From a virus, in IMG/VR virus record IMGVR_UViG_3300010885_022647, positions 1 to 32,559 of that record: 32,559 bases of DNA, one strand, 5' to 3'. Position 1 is the first letter of the stretch; each line of letters opens with the position of its first letter. Position numbers and translations under genes: made by a program. Below the pieces are notes generated by a model. The model worked only from the letters and a program-made list of their open reading frames with translations. It was not told where the DNA came from and did no database searches. Positions 10,052-27,501 of the stretch are shown one piece after another.

Positions 10052-10357
10052 ATGCAGCTTAAACAGGGAACATTCTGCCCGCTCATTAAGAAAGACTGCA
10101 TTCAGACGCAGTGTTCTTGGTTCACGCAGCTTCGTGGAACGCACCCGCAGACTGGTCAAGAAATTGATGAGTGGATGTGCGCCATCTCGGCCCTCCCGAT
10201 GCTTCAGATTGAGGTGGCGAAGCAGGCCCGCAGCGGCGCGGTGGCGACTGAAAGTTTCCGCAACGAGATGGTGAAGATGCGCGTCACGCCGATCACCGAC
10301 CAGCTCGACCTCATCATGTCCGCCGCGAAGCAGGACGCTCCAAAACGATTGGGGTAG
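10052..10357 (+). CDS. Small cysteine-containing hypothetical protein
   Basis: 101 residues of unknown function, starting 3 bases after the fibre gene. Cys9, Cys16, Cys21 and Cys43 sit in its first half (FCPLIKKDCIQTQCSW and WMCAI), a set that could bind a metal or an Fe-S cluster; the rest is helical. It is the last gene of the rightward virion block. Its final 44 bases overlap, tail to tail, the leftward GcrA-like gene. A role in fibre assembly is possible from position only. No signal peptide or membrane segment. Confidence 0.6.
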   Translation: MQLKQGTFCPLIKKDCIQTQCSWFTQLRGTHPQTGQEIDEWMCAISALPMLQIEVAKQARSGAVATESFRNEMVKMRVTPITDQLDLIMSAAKQDAPKRLG

Positions 10358-10571
10358 CGGGCAGGCCCTTGTAGCAGATCTTGTGGTGGGCCTTGCAGTA
10401 GGAGCCCCTGAAGGTTTGGGCGCCACAAAAAATGGCCCCAGCGTCTTCGCTGGAGCCAATTACAAAGCGGCACGAGAAGAGCCGCAGCTCCAGTATCGTC
10501 ACCCCAAATGTTGATTGACCCTCCCCCGTCTGGGGAAGATCCTCCTTGCGTGATCGGCTGAGATCATCCAT
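10314..10571 (-). CDS. GcrA C-terminal-domain-only protein (mini-GcrA)
   Basis: 85 residues from the ATG at 10571, which overlaps the end of the DnaA-like gene (ATG at 10571-10569, stop of that gene at 10566-10564). An in-frame ATG at 10577 is the alternative. The pattern TILEL, then CRFVIGSSEDAGAIFCG, then GSYCKAHHKICY is the signature of the C-terminal region of GcrA, where Caulobacter GcrA has CKWPIGD, FCG and YC-x-x-H. That region binds the sigma-70 factor. The N-terminal HTH domain of GcrA, which reads methylated GANTC, is absent (full-length GcrA is about 170 residues). The Cys-x14-Cys-x8-Cys-x2-His spacing would suit a metal site. I infer a sigma-70-binding competitor or adaptor. The GcrA match is by eye but strong. 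Confidence 0.72.
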   Translation of the reverse strand: MDDLSRSRKEDLPQTGEGQSTFGVTILELRLFSCRFVIGSSEDAGAIFCGAQTFRGSYCKAHHKICYKGLPATPIVLERPASRRT

Positions 10572-11088
10572 GATCATTTTGCGTCTGTGGTTCCACCTGA
10601 GTGACACAGGCGCTCGAAACGCACGACTTGCTCGCCCAAGGCCCCAAGCCAAGGGCGAGATTTTTTTCATAGCGGCGGATCGCGTGGAGGACGGTCGTGT
10701 GGTCCCGGTGGCCCATCAGGCGCCCGATCTGCGAGAGCGAAAAGTTCAGCTCATACTTGAGCCGATACGACGCCTCCTGACGACACAGGACGTAGGCCGC
10801 GTCCCTGCTCTTGCTGCGGAAGACCGTGGGCGGCATCCCGTACTTCTCGGCCACCTCAGACAAGATCTTCTTGGATGGCGTCTCAGTGACCGCCGGAGGG
10901 GCCGCAATGGCCACTTCGACGATCTCATTAAGTTCCTGAACAATGGCGGGGAGGCTGAGTGGGTCCGGGTATGGCTCCGGCTCTGGCTCGGGGTAAATGA
11001 GGCGGAAGGGAGGTTCCTTTTTAATTGGGTTATCTAAGCGGGCCCTGACGGCCTTGTAATGTGCGTGAAGTTCCTCAAGCGTTCTCAT
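10564..11088 (-). CDS. DnaA domain IV-like DNA-binding protein
   Basis: 174 residues from the ATG at 11088, chosen for a GGAG six bases upstream; the frame is open to 11187. An N-terminal helix and an acidic Pro-rich linker (PEPEPEPYPDP, residues 33-43) lead to a C-terminal module at about 74-142. There, FSLSQIGRLMGHRDHTTVLHAIRRYE is the DnaA signature (HRDHTTVLHA, residues 127-136) that reads the TTATCCACA box. The AAA+ ATPase and DnaB-loading parts of DnaA are missing, so it cannot act as an initiator by itself. It may block host DnaA or work as a phage regulator; perfect DnaA boxes occur elsewhere in the window. Its end overlaps the mini-GcrA gene. Confidence 0.78.
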   Translation of the reverse strand: MRTLEELHAHYKAVRARLDNPIKKEPPFRLIYPEPEPEPYPDPLSLPAIVQELNEIVEVAIAAPPAVTETPSKKILSEVAEKYGMPPTVFRSKSRDAAYVLCRQEASYRLKYELNFSLSQIGRLMGHRDHTTVLHAIRRYEKNLALGLGPWASKSCVSSACVTQVEPQTQNDHG

Positions 11089-11108: not shown

Positions 11109-11678
11109 TCAGTGAAATGTCAGGGCGACATAACGCTGCTTGTACCGCTCCGGGCGCCGAGCGAGCCTCACGTTCCAATTCGCCCACCCCGCCACATGGC
11201 AGGCCGCCATCTCACGGGGCTCACGGACACCGCCCTTTTCAATGCAGGCCTTCATGTGCGCCACCCCCGCGAAAATATTTTGTTCGCACTCGTACATTCG
11301 CGTCGGATCAAATCCCAACGACCGAGCCGAGCTGTCGATGAGCTGGAAGACGCCCTTGGCGTTGCCGTGGCGCGTCTTCGGCCCTCTGGCCCGGCAAGTG
11401 AAGTTGCTCTCCAATTTGGCAATCCGCAAGGCGGTATCGACCCACTTTGAGCCGATCTGGGCCGTGACGTGGTCCGCAATGGCGTCCGCCAGCTTCTGCT
11501 TCTCGGGCGTCATCTTGGAGAGCTTCACGAGCCTCCCGTAGGGGCTTGGAGTGTGAACCAGCTCGCCGGTCCACTTGTTGGCCTTATCTCTGGCGAAATA
11601 CTCGGCTGCGGACATTTCGTCTGCAACGGCGGGCGCCGCCATACTTAGGGCCACAAGGGCCAGCGCGGTGATCTTCAT
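11109..11678 (-). CDS. Secreted lytic transglycosylase-like endolysin
   Basis: 189 residues. A Sec signal peptide (residues 1-19, cleavage likely after AVA) is followed by a lysozyme-like fold of the SLT type: ALRIAKLESNF with Glu at about residue 90 as probable catalytic acid, KGVFQLIDSSARSLGFD, then CEQNIFAGVAHMKACIEKGG and AACHVAGWANWN. It would cleave glycan strands in the periplasm, for lysis or wall remodelling. AGGAG stands before the ATG. Signal-bearing endolysins need a holin only for timing; no classic holin was recognised, though tiny membrane proteins occur nearby. It is placed with regulators on the leftward strand, not with the virion genes. Confidence 0.8.
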   Translation of the reverse strand: MKITALALVALSMAAPAVADEMSAAEYFARDKANKWTGELVHTPSPYGRLVKLSKMTPEKQKLADAIADHVTAQIGSKWVDTALRIAKLESNFTCRARGPKTRHGNAKGVFQLIDSSARSLGFDPTRMYECEQNIFAGVAHMKACIEKGGVREPREMAACHVAGWANWNVRLARRPERYKQRYVALTFH

Positions 11679-16774: not shown

Positions 16775-16802
16775 GGGTCACTTTCAATTTCGAACTGTCC
16801 GC

Positions 16803-16832
16803 AGGGTAGGCTGATTTGCGAAACGGTGTCAA
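16803..16832 (-). promoter_or_regulatory. Candidate leftward promoter for the exonuclease operon
   Basis: On the minus strand a perfect -35 TTGACA (16832-16827) is followed after 18 bases by TACCCT (16808-16803), a weak -10. One arm of the long inverted repeat (TTCGCAAATCA on this strand) lies in the spacer, where a repressor would block it. The start of the exonuclease gene is about 30 bases downstream. Confidence 0.45.
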
Positions 16833-16895
16833 CGGACAATTTGTCTTTTCCCCCAGTTGACTTCGAAGACAAAATGTCTCAACCTTCGCAAATCA
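16812..16895. promoter_or_regulatory. Divergent operator region with nested dyads
   Basis: An 11-base perfect inverted repeat, TGATTTGCGAA (16812-16822) and TTCGCAAATCA (16885-16895), brackets two copies of a shorter dyad GACA-N3-TGTC (16835-16845 and 16868-16878), whose centres are 33 bases apart. The region separates the leftward exonuclease operon from the rightward replication operon. A TTGACT (16857-16862) could be the rightward -35. The spacing suggests cooperative binding by one regulator, perhaps the HTH protein encoded just downstream. Confidence 0.5.
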
Positions 16896-16908
16896 CTTGG
16901 AGGTGGCC

Positions 16909-17710: not shown

Positions 17711-19837
17711 ATGAGCCTCGCAATGTCATTTGATCCAGACTTCGCGGACCCTACAGAGTGGGCTCGCATGTATCGCTCGGTCGGGATGCAAGTTGTCCCG
17801 GCCATGAGCCACCGTGAGAACCGCAACCAGTGGAAGCGCCCGGCACTGCCGAAGTGGCGTGAACTGGAAAACGAGCTGATCCCCGACTTCACCTTCGAGC
17901 GTTGGTATGGCGAGGAAGGCGAACACGCCCGCCGCAACAACATGGGCCTGATCGCGGGCGCCTGCTCCAGCGGGGTCTTCGTCGTCGATCTGGACCTGCA
18001 CAAGGACGTGCGGGCGCAGGCTTGGTGGGACGACATGTTTCACATGAAACAGAGCGCCGGCGAGCTGGAAACGGTCGAGCAGGCCACGGGCGGCGGCGGC
18101 GTCCAGCTCTTTTTCCGGGCCCCTCTGGGGTGGGTTCCCCCGACATGCAAGACGAGCATCGGGGTGGACATCAGGGGGCAGGGAGGCTTCGCCATGATGC
18201 CGCCCAGCACCCACGAGAGCGGCAAGTCATACCGCTGGAAGGACGGCCACGAGCCGTGGGAGATGGACATCGCCACGGCGCCGCAGTGGTTCTGCGACCA
18301 GATCACCCAGCTCGCCATTGAGCACGGCGGATCTGGCGGGAACCGTGTAACAGGCGAAAAAACTGCGTCACCAAATAAAGCTGTGGATAACTTTGGCAAT
18401 ATTGTCGATGGCCGCGAGGACTACATGACCAAGCTGGTCTGGGCGGCGGTGGTCGATCTGAAGCGCGATTGCCCCGGAGATCTGGGGAGTTTGTCTGAAA
18501 AGCACATGCTCGAAAGCTTCGCCACCTACGAGCGCAAGGTGAAGAGCCGCATTCAGGGCGGGTACGGCGTCTCAAACGCCGACCTTCTGGAGCGCGAGGG
18601 GCGTGGCATCTCAATGTTCAGGCACAAGTGGCAGAACGCCATCGACCAGTGGGACACCAAGGTGGCCGAGCATGCGAAGGTGGAGCGCCCCGGCCGCCCT
18701 TTCGATCAGGCCGATGAGCCGCAGCCGGTCAAGTTCTACAAGGTGGACGAGGAAACCGGCGAACTTTTCGTCGATGTAATTAAGCCAACGACCGTTGATC
18801 TATTTGAGTTCCTCGACATTGAGGGGATTTTGTCCCTTCCCAAGCCCAAGTATCTGATCGACAAGTTGATGATTGAGGCGGCGCTCGGCTTCGTCTATGG
18901 CCCTCCGGGATGCGGCAAGAGCTTCATCACTATTGGCATGGGCCTGTCGATCTGCTCGGAGCGGGCGGAGTGGTTTGGGCGCAGGATCAACAAGACCGGC
19001 CCCGTCGTCTACATCTCGTCAGAGGGCGTGGGCGACATCGGCACACGCATCCTCGCGTGGGAGAAGGAGGCTGGCGTCAAGGTGCGCGGCCTGCCCTTCT
19101 ACCTGATCCAGCAAACGATCAACTTCATGGCGCAGGCGGACGTGGAGAGGCTCCTGCGCACCGTGGCCGAGATCGGCAAGGTCGCCGGGGGGTTCCCCGT
19201 CACCGTCTTCGTGGACACTGTCAGCCGCGTGTTGCCGGGTGCCGACGAGAACCTCCAGAAGGACATGACCCTCTTCATTGGCGCCTGCGACGCCGTCCGC
19301 ACGACCTTTGGCGCCACGGTCGTCGGCGTCCACCACACGAGCCGGGCGGGCAACCTGCGGGGGTCCACGGTGTTTGACGGCGCCGGTGACTTCCTGCTCG
19401 GCATTGAGCGGGAGGAGGGCGAGATGATCGGCGAGATCCACGCCCGTAAGATCAAGAGCGCCGAGGACGGCTGGCGGCAGGCCTTCGAACTGAAGAAGGT
19501 CGTCGTCAATGACATCACCGGCGAGACCAGCCTCTACGCGGGGCAGGCCAACGCCAAGGCCGAGGCCAAGAGCGTCTGGCCCGAGAAGCAGGCCTGCCGC
19601 GACATGCTCAACGTGATCCGGGTCGCGTGGTTCTCTGGGCGCCCGCTCTCCAGCTACTCCCAGACCCGCAAGCAGGGGCGGTACGCTTCGGCGGTCCTGA
19701 GCCAGCAATTCGACCTCCCCGAGAAGGTGGTCGAGATGATGGTGGACACATGGCTGTCCAACCAGATTTTGTCCTACGAGGTCGCGGACAAGAGCACCAA
19801 GATGCAAGGCCTCAAAGTAATCGGATCAATCGACTAG
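17711..19837 (+). CDS. Primase-polymerase / RecA-fold helicase fusion
   Basis: 708 residues from the ATG at 17711, inside the end of the resolvase frame region and behind GAGATAGAT. The N-terminal primase-polymerase (AEP) domain shows VVDLDLHKD (Asp93, Asp95), GGGGVQLFFRAP and VDIRGQGGFAMMPPSTH. A linker of lower GC content around 215-240 carries a DnaA box. The C-terminal ATPase shows Walker A GPPGCGKS (397-404), Walker B VTVFVDT (Asp502) and a GVHHTSRAGN motif (His541), as in RepA/AAA_25 ring helicases. It would prime and unwind at the phage fork, leaving synthesis to a polymerase not in this window. Confidence 0.88.
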   Translation: MSLAMSFDPDFADPTEWARMYRSVGMQVVPAMSHRENRNQWKRPALPKWRELENELIPDFTFERWYGEEGEHARRNNMGLIAGACSSGVFVVDLDLHKDVRAQAWWDDMFHMKQSAGELETVEQATGGGGVQLFFRAPLGWVPPTCKTSIGVDIRGQGGFAMMPPSTHESGKSYRWKDGHEPWEMDIATAPQWFCDQITQLAIEHGGSGGNRVTGEKTASPNKAVDNFGNIVDGREDYMTKLVWAAVVDLKRDCPGDLGSLSEKHMLESFATYERKVKSRIQGGYGVSNADLLEREGRGISMFRHKWQNAIDQWDTKVAEHAKVERPGRPFDQADEPQPVKFYKVDEETGELFVDVIKPTTVDLFEFLDIEGILSLPKPKYLIDKLMIEAALGFVYGPPGCGKSFITIGMGLSICSERAEWFGRRINKTGPVVYISSEGVGDIGTRILAWEKEAGVKVRGLPFYLIQQTINFMAQADVERLLRTVAEIGKVAGGFPVTVFVDTVSRVLPGADENLQKDMTLFIGACDAVRTTFGATVVGVHHTSRAGNLRGSTVFDGAGDFLLGIEREEGEMIGEIHARKIKSAEDGWRQAFELKKVVVNDITGETSLYAGQANAKAEAKSVWPEKQACRDMLNVIRVAWFSGRPLSSYSQTRKQGRYASAVLSQQFDLPEKVVEMMVDTWLSNQILSYEVADKSTKMQGLKVIGSID
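18382..18390 (-). promoter_or_regulatory. Perfect DnaA box inside the primase-helicase gene
   Basis: TGTGGATAA on the plus strand is TTATCCACA on the minus strand, the exact DnaA consensus. It lies in the linker region between the two domains of the primase-helicase gene, which is locally richer in A and T. Since it is inside a coding sequence (Ala-Val-Asp-Asn) it may be coincidental, but two more perfect copies lie in control regions. Confidence 0.4.
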
Positions 19838-23086: not shown

Positions 23087-23268
23087 CCGGAACTCATGCG
23101 GAGGTTGAAAATCCCAGAAATCCGGGCGAAATCGACAGACCTCCGCTAACCTCCGCTAACCTCCGTAAAGTTTGCGGAGGTTGTGCGTGGTGTTGTGGTG
23201 TAATGTGTTACATTACACCCCCCGCTTCGGCGGGGTGTGAGTTCCGGTGGGGTCAATGGAGGGTCTAG
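23083..23268 (+). CDS. Possible 61-residue cysteine-rich ORF over a repeat region
   Basis: An ATG overlapping the previous stop (ATGA) opens 61 codons with a cluster CGGCAWCCGVMC. The same bases carry decanucleotide direct repeats and two strong hairpins, and the composition is odd for this phage, so translation may be incidental. Kept at low confidence because the coupled start is like those of its neighbours. Confidence 0.25.
   Translation: MTGTHAEVENPRNPGEIDRPPLTSANLRKVCGGCAWCCGVMCYITPPASAGCEFRWGQWRV
23197..23235 (+). terminator. Tandem hairpins: 10-base perfect stem, then UUCG-loop stem
   Basis: First hairpin: arms GGTGTAATGT and ACATTACACC with loop GTT (23197-23219). Second: CCCCGC / GCGGGG closed by the very stable TTCG loop (23220-23235). 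No T-run follows, so termination may be Rho-aided, or the pair may be a processing or binding site. Confidence 0.45.
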
Positions 23269-25221: not shown

Positions 25222-25443
25222 TCAGGCAATCTGCATTGATGCGATGATCTTGTCCTCGACCCACTCCATCGGGAGCAGGCCCTCGGAAATGCCCTCCAAC
25301 AGCATGACGGCTGAGGCTGGCGGGGGGCTGGCGCCGGCCAGCCAGAGTTGGACGCTGCGGCGGGTGACGCCCATGATCAGGGCCACGTCAGCCGTGCTGA
25401 AGTCCAGCTTGTGCATGATGTCTTTCAGCTTGTCCGGGGTCAA
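25222..25443 (-). CDS. Small XRE-like HTH protein
   Basis: 73 residues beginning with TTG at 25443, which overlaps the TGA of the gene before and has GGAG eight bases upstream. LKDIMHKLDFSTADVALIMGVTRRSVQLWLAG is an HTH with the pattern of Cro/XRE repressors (helix 2 TADVALIMGV, helix 3 RRSVQLWLAG), followed by a helical end. It closes the leftward early-type operon. It could be the regulator that binds the dyads in the two promoters of this operon, an autoregulatory arrangement that is inferred. Confidence 0.62.
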   Translation of the reverse strand: MTPDKLKDIMHKLDFSTADVALIMGVTRRSVQLWLAGASPPPASAVMLLEGISEGLLPMEWVEDKIIASMQIA

Positions 25444-25643
25444 TGGCTCATCTCCAACAGCGCGGCCCTTGCGGAGGCCTGTGAGCGGGCGTGGCGGAGG
25501 TCGCCGTTGGTTGTGAGGGCCCGCCAAATTGGCCTGCCCCCGCGCTTCATGGAGCCCTTGGCGATCCACCCGATCAGGCGGTCGAAGTAGTAGACCGAGA
25601 AGGTCCCGTCCGGGTTGAAGGACGTGTGGATGGGGTGGGGCAT
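25440..25643 (-). CDS. Small hypothetical protein
   Basis: 67 residues of unknown function. It has a beta-type N-terminal part (TSFNPDGTFSVYYFDRLIGWI), then a basic stretch (KGSMKRGGRPIWRAL) and a helix. Its ATG overlaps the previous stop (TGATG) and its own stop overlaps the HTH gene, so the three genes are coupled. No known motif. Confidence 0.52.
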   Translation of the reverse strand: MPHPIHTSFNPDGTFSVYYFDRLIGWIAKGSMKRGGRPIWRALTTNGDLRHARSQASARAALLEMSH

Positions 25644-26199: not shown

Positions 26200-26514
26200 T
26201 TAGGCCGCCTTCTGGACCTTGCTGGGCTTCTTGGCCTTGATGCGGAACACCTTGTAGGCCTCTCCCTCGACCTTGCAGGAGTCGATCTGGGCCTGCGTCA
26301 GGCCCAAGGCGAGCAACATCTTTTCGTTGATGGTCTTGCGGGACTGCAAGGTGACTTCGAGGTCGGCGGTCTCGCCTTCGAGGAAGCCGTAGCCGCCCAA
26401 GATGTCTACGACGTCCTGCTTGGCGGCCTTCACGACGGCCTCGGCCTGATCAAGCTGCTCCTTGGCGGCGAAGTAGACTTCGGCGGCGGCGACGGTGTTG
26501 TTGAGAGCGGTCAT
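26200..26514 (-). CDS. Helical hypothetical protein with basic tail
   Basis: 104 residues from the ATG at 26514, preceded by GGAGATTGAT. The first 45 residues form a long Ala-rich helix (VAAAEVYFAAKEQLDQAEAVVKAAKQ), the middle is beta-type (GETADLEVTLQSRK), and the end is strongly basic (KVFRIKAKKPSKVQKAA), suiting nucleic-acid contact. It is the first gene after one of the two dyad-bearing promoters. The function is unknown; an early host-takeover role is inferred from position only. Confidence 0.55.
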   Translation of the reverse strand: MTALNNTVAAAEVYFAAKEQLDQAEAVVKAAKQDVVDILGGYGFLEGETADLEVTLQSRKTINEKMLLALGLTQAQIDSCKVEGEAYKVFRIKAKKPSKVQKAA

Positions 26515-26565
26515 ATCAATCTCCATCTGGTTAAGTGCCGGTCTACATCCAGACCGTGATTTAAG

Positions 26566-26629: not shown

Positions 26630-26638
26630 TGTGGATAA
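26630..26638 (-). promoter_or_regulatory. Perfect DnaA box in the leftward control region
   Basis: TTATCCACA on the minus strand, part of an 18-base segment (26628-26645) that is repeated exactly at 27484-27501 (CCTGTGGATAACTTTTTT). It lies upstream of a dyad-bearing promoter and just after the stop of the 87-residue gene. Confidence 0.6.
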
Positions 26639-27406: not shown

Positions 27407-27442
27407 GTCAATCTCCATGTGGTTAGAAGCAACCATGTCCCC

Positions 27443-27483: not shown

Positions 27484-27501
27484 CCTGTGGATAACTTTTT
27501 T
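27484..27501. repeat. 18-base direct repeat with DnaA box (second copy at 26628-26645)
   Basis: CCTGTGGATAACTTTTTT occurs twice in the same orientation, each time about 30-50 bases upstream of a dyad-bearing promoter. It contains TGTGGATAA (27486-27494), the complement of the DnaA consensus TTATCCACA, followed by six T. Confidence 0.75.

Follow-up and report, generated by a model that had tools for sequence, protein, structure and literature searches.

An isolated DnaA domain IV gene coupled to an isolated GcrA sigma-interacting domain gene in a phage with DnaA-box promoters: a possible transcription-activation module

The window, that is, the whole stretch of viral DNA analysed here (IMG/VR record IMGVR_UViG_3300010885_022647, 32,559 nucleotides), carries on one strand two small genes whose products, P0001 and P0002, correspond respectively to one end of DnaA and one end of GcrA (Table 1). 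The two reading frames overlap by 8 nt (ATGGATGA), the ATG of the second being at 10571 and the TGA of the first at 10564-10566, which bears out the coupling proposed in the first-pass annotation.

Table 1. Positions in the window of the gene pair, its neighbours, the exact DnaA boxes and the promoters that carry them
Feature	Coordinates	Strand	Remarks
P0002, GcrA sigma-interacting domain (SID)-only protein	10314..10571	(-)	85 aa, HTH absent
GC-rich hairpin	10517..10542	(-)	codons 10-19 of the SID gene; compensatory changes in relatives
P0001, DnaA domain IV-only protein	10564..11088	(-)	174 aa, AAA+ absent
SLT transglycosylase	11109..11678	(-)	directly upstream of the pair, same strand; conserved in closest relatives
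Third exact DnaA box	18382..18390	(-)	within Prim-Pol coding sequence; not promoter-like
108-aa protein	26200..26526	(-)	downstream of the 26594 promoter; kept beside these promoters in relatives
Promoter of the 26638 box	-35 TAGACA 26594-26589, -10 TACAAC 26571-26566	(-)	spacer palindrome acgaaatatcttcgt
Exact DnaA box TTATCCACA	26630..26638	(-)	35 bp upstream of -35; precedes ORF 26526-26200
Promoter of the 27494 box	-35 TTTACA 27471-27466, -10 TACAAG 27448-27443	(-)	17-nt spacer, palindrome gcgaagtttcttcgc
Exact DnaA box TTATCCACA	27486..27494	(-)	14 bp upstream of -35; precedes ORF ending 26972

P0001 begins with a helix (TLEELHAHYKAVRARL), continues through a proline/acidic linker, and reaches DnaA domain IV at residues 73-139, where its sole profile match is found (Bac_DnaA_C, PF08299, E 6e-17); in the profile search the 72 residues ahead of this match gave nothing for the AAA+ domain III. 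In the PDB its sequence matches 1j1v, E. coli DnaA domain IV with a DnaA box (E 6e-7), and the same entry is the best fold match of the predicted structure (rmsd 1.2 Å over 77 columns), whose pLDDT is above 90 across domain IV, so that the earlier description of a domain IV without its AAA+ part is upheld by sequence and fold alike. The residues which we take to be those contacting the DnaA box in 1j1v, R399, R407, D433, H434, T435 and T436, correspond in an ungapped alignment, with the numbering counted backwards from R432-DHTT, to R95, R103, D129, H130, T131 and T132 of P0001. Within the P0001 family these positions are invariant except for R95, which is conserved in at least 90%, and because of this conservation P0001 would be expected to bind standard DnaA-box DNA.

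P0002 matches the GcrA profile PF07750 (E 1.3e-7; 32.5 bits, exceeding the curated cut-off of 26.9) at positions 100-147 of 155, that is, in just the last third of GcrA, and has no match to profile positions 1-99, which hold the N-terminal HTH that reads methylated GANTC; the frame upstream of its start runs into the dnaA-like gene. The profile search thus agrees with the first reading of the protein as a GcrA C-terminal part lacking the HTH. Its match to chain B of 5yix, the GcrA SID in complex with sigma70, has an E-value of 1.8e-5 (1.9e-7 in the profile-based comparison). The cysteine/histidine signature of the Caulobacter GcrA SID is also there, although the middle spacing had been misread as x8: it is C-x14-C-x9-C-x2-H (C34, C49, C59, H62), with spacing identical to that in 5yix. 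The CxWPIG motif reads CRFVIG, both W and P being replaced, and the single-chain predicted model is poor (pLDDT 51). From homology across some 47 residues P0002 would bind sigma70. The hairpin within its gene (92.7% of cells paired; covariation 0.393 vs 0.229 in shuffled and at most 0.206 in slid controls) may affect P0002 expression.

Relatives were sought in IMG/VR by scans confirmed with tblastn, which gave 25 for P0001 and 27 for P0002, and in 23 other contigs an SID-only gene lies directly downstream of a DnaA-IV gene, overlapping or abutting it. The reading frames are open in these contigs and purifying selection acts on the two genes (median pairwise dN/dS of 0.38 for the SID gene and 0.28 for the DnaA-IV gene), which rules out a one-contig artefact or a frameshift and removes the doubt, raised with the original proposal, that the pair might be unique to this contig and frameshifted in its relatives. 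In six further contigs (L022, L023, L047-L049 and L073) the same DnaA-IV gene is followed by a GcrA-like protein of about 100 aa that has the HTH, and in L025 a full-length GcrA lies 1.5 kb downstream; given these HTH-bearing neighbours, the simplest history is that in the clade of the window the GcrA-like gene adjoining dnaA-IV lost its HTH. In L118 and L125 full GcrA genes overlap the DnaA-IV gene or lie just upstream of it, and in L080, L081 and L095 an SID-only protein of 55-70 aa precedes a diverged DnaA-IV gene. A scan with this SID alone, which made no use of DnaA although a DnaA search had supplied its three seeds, gave a second clade of 18 contigs, all 18 with the SID only, and all 18 with a DnaA-IV gene 0.3-0.8 kb downstream on the same strand (two of them cut by the contig end). 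The SID-only form of GcrA thus adjoins DnaA-IV in two clades that differ in gene order.

Phage proteins consisting of DnaA domain IV only are common, and 37 of 48 other such records have no GcrA match. No fusion of DnaA-IV and SID was seen among the loci compared, nor was any record of an annotated phage collection matched by both the GcrA and the DnaA-like searches. GcrA homologues in phages (phiCbK gp222, PMC3556154; Atu_ph08 gp5, PMC6630229) and DnaA-like proteins in phages are already known, each separately. The former differ from P0002 and from both SID-only clades, which lack the HTH reading methylated GANTC; the latter include short proteins of the Pelagibacter phages HTVC010P and Skadi and of Rhizobium phages, which share domain IV and its DnaA signature with P0001 and whose phage records yielded no GcrA-like gene. 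The pair itself appears in none of the papers searched, in keeping with the earlier statement that no description was known; these were open-licence papers, and an older description elsewhere is possible.

The window holds eight DnaA boxes, three exact and five with one mismatch, where 2.7 were expected, a number reached in 0 of 100 shuffles; its most over-represented 9-mer is TATCCACAG, and TTATCCACA is identical to the canonical high-affinity box of E. coli. Two of the exact boxes belong to promoters, both of which precede small genes and share one layout: an AT-rich tract, AAAAAAG-TTATCCACA-GG, a gap, a -35 element (TTTACA/TAGACA/TTGACA), a 17-nt spacer containing CGAA-n5-TTCG, a -10 element (TACAAG/TATAAG) and a leader ending in ATGGAGATTGACATG. 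This leader, with two in-frame ATGs (MEIDM), also stands before many other genes of the window, for example at 27420 and 26530. The inverted repeat between -35 and -10, which formed part of the pattern used to search for promoters of this class, resembles an operator, and an HTH protein encoded near 25222-25460 (-) is a candidate for binding it.

IMG/VR and the contigs already collected were scanned with a pattern that specified one box orientation, which yielded 37 distinct box-promoter elements. The gap between box and -35 is 14 bp in 23 of the 37, 25 bp in nine and 15, 30, 31 or 35 bp in the remaining five, with a second palindrome within the longer gaps; strict helical phasing accounts for only some of these gaps, as 14, 25 and 35 bp fit and 30-31 bp do not. 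When the promoters were collected without regard to the box, an exact TTATCCACA lay within 60 bp upstream in 24 of 31 (0.0085 expected), a fraction inflated by contigs that had been fetched for holding the element, and a box with at most one mismatch in 26 (0.37 expected; 0.31% of random positions). Among the 15 promoters of contigs fetched for the pair alone there are nine exact forward boxes and two exact inverted ones, and several promoters of the same class have no box. The box is not enriched in 44 records from other phages with DnaA-IV (six exact boxes, against six for the reversed control), and the stretches read of the second SID-only clade showed no such promoters. What is new is a repeated sigma70-type phage promoter preceded by a DnaA box, with 14 or 25 bp as the preferred distance from box to -35, a class not described in the open-licence papers searched, including for the Pelagibacter and Rhizobium phages with DnaA-like proteins.

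The pair and the box-promoter occur together in the window and in G053, G054, G059, G066 and G056 (in the last with one mismatch in the box), as judged on contigs in which the early region and the pair locus were both seen; G002 and G063, whose GcrA retains the HTH, have the pair locus and the promoters, with the box inverted. The remaining promoter contigs gave no match to the pair, but they stop short of its locus, which makes this result uninformative, and the same search does detect the pair in G053 and G056. In two related phages, L239 and L265, the promoter occurs with no box, on contigs that end before the pair. All box-promoter contigs belong to one related lineage sharing TerL, Prim-Pol and the gene of the 108-aa protein, so that the link between pair and promoters is without independent replication.

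GANTC, the site of CcrM and GcrA, occurs six times in the window (0.18 per kb), as against 144 in shuffles; the observed/expected ratio by a Markov model is 0.12, a depletion of about 8-fold by that measure and about 20-fold by composition. With so few sites, a normal GcrA that reads methylation would find little to bind on the phage DNA. The site is equally depleted in the HTH-bearing relatives G002, G063 and G067, and many 6-bp palindromes (ATCGAT, CCGCGG, GTCGAC, CTCGAG) are absent from the window where 10-18 would be expected; restriction avoidance is thus a sufficient reading of the loss of GANTC. That this loss drove the loss of the HTH was considered and set aside, because the HTH-bearing relatives are as depleted and the depletion is weaker in some SID-only contigs (G056, G066), as it is also in G085.

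If we accept the activities suggested by homology, the pair could form a transcription-activation module for the phage's own promoters, the reading we prefer, with a probability of roughly 0.4. P0001 would bind the DnaA box, which in most cases precedes the -35 element by 14 or 25 bp, and P0002, in the manner of the GcrA SID, would bind region 2 of sigma70 in the host RNA polymerase. In Caulobacter the SID binds sigma2 and GcrA acts in open-complex formation (PMC7403470); P0002 may similarly aid opening at promoters with a poor -10 (TACAAG, TAATCT, CTAAGG), hexamers that would fit a need for such help. Together the two proteins would bias the host polymerase toward phage promoters, and P0002 may simultaneously drive host GcrA off sigma70. 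A direct contact between them through the flexible P0001 linker of some 50 residues is conceivable and is not required; direct bridging would be strained, given the long distance to sigma region 2 from a box with its centre near -55 or -66. Both the activation and the cooperation are proposed here from the nature and the arrangement of the parts. A more specific form, to be held only tentatively, is a sigma appropriation in which DnaA-IV would read the box of the phage promoter and the HTH-less SID would engage sigma70, the GcrA cofactor having been redirected to DnaA boxes, in place of methylated GANTC, within a GANTC-poor genome.

The nearest parallel is phage T4, where MotA, of two domains joined by a flexible linker, binds its box and AsiA binds sigma70 (PMC6755090). 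Here too there would be a phage DNA-binding protein with a flexible linker and a separate N-terminal part, a small sigma70-binding protein (by homology), and a protein-specific box in phage promoters that retain the sigma70 -10, provided that P0001 binds it as expected. However, AsiA remodels sigma region 4, whereas the GcrA SID by homology would address region 2; the MotA box replaces the -35 at about -30, whereas the DnaA box lies upstream of a retained -35; and, unlike MotA and AsiA, both parts of the window pair resemble host cell-cycle proteins.

Recognition of these boxes by host DnaA is to be expected as well, and a serious rival, although on balance unlikely, is that host DnaA is their reader, in which case the phage genes would fire at host entry into S phase, P0001, free of the regulated AAA+ part, would later replace or block DnaA, and P0002 would act separately on sigma70. 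In C. crescentus DnaA activates the gcrA and mipZ promoters, each of which has a single DnaA box (PMC3193534), and activation by DnaA can operate via RNA polymerase, in the case of lambda via its beta subunit (PMC8203912), so that control of transcription by a promoter DnaA box has host precedents, to which the canonical high-affinity form of the phage box would be suited. Our case would differ from the Caulobacter gcrA promoter and from lambda origin transcription in two respects: domain IV is encoded by the phage itself, and the site recurs as a promoter element. Against the host as reader stand the absence of box enrichment from other DnaA-IV phages and the fact that DnaA-IV and SID genes are consistently coupled, which this rival leaves unexplained.

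The first-pass annotation had proposed a competitor device, in which P0001 would sit on the DnaA boxes of the host, P0002 would block the site of GcrA on sigma70, and the host cell cycle would be shut off or reprogrammed. Isolated DNA-binding and sigma-binding domains are indeed plausible dominant negatives, the SID should bind sigma70 independently of methylated GANTC, and with a phage nearly free of this site the cost of losing GcrA function would fall on host promoters only; a competition of P0002 with host GcrA is in itself possible. As the primary role of the pair, however, competition is rather improbable: the enriched boxes lie in the phage's own promoters, which makes phage DNA the obvious target of DnaA-IV, and a competitor would occupy these promoters too and does not explain their existence, while restriction avoidance accounts for the GANTC depletion equally well. 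A role of P0001 as an origin-recognition replication factor, with P0002 an unrelated neighbour, is more improbable still, for although in five phages (the window, G049, G051, G053 and G062) the Prim-Pol gene contains a conserved exact box and P0001 weakly matches a PHROG labelled replication initiation protein (E 0.0012), the boxes stand alone, each with a -35/-10 at the preferred spacing, and are not gathered in origin-like clusters, and the pair recurs across differing gene orders.

If the activation module is real, it would be a second route, beside MotA/AsiA, by which a phage redirects the host sigma70 polymerase, using a DNA-binding and a sigma-binding protein derived from domains of the alphaproteobacterial cell cycle. 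It would also offer a natural test of whether a GcrA SID works without its methyl-DNA reader. Even with host DnaA reading the boxes, a class of phage promoters would be tied to a host replication regulator. The promoter element is explicit enough for reporter testing.

The host of the phage is presumably alphaproteobacterial. A close relative of the phage region, L127 (CANBWJ010000128.1), was the single match among genome contigs and lies inside a metagenome-assembled genome bin named Opitutae; it looks like a phage contig, probably mis-binned, and the name of the bin therefore says nothing on the host. The 108-aa protein has a weak match to the C-terminus of a RecE-like exonuclease (E 0.0015). 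At 16800-16900 there is a divergent early-operon control region with inverted repeats (GATTTGCGAA...TTCGCAAATC, GACAATTTGTC) and no DnaA box, and at 23142-23182 short direct repeats (CCTCCGCTAA) lie near the start of a rightward operon.
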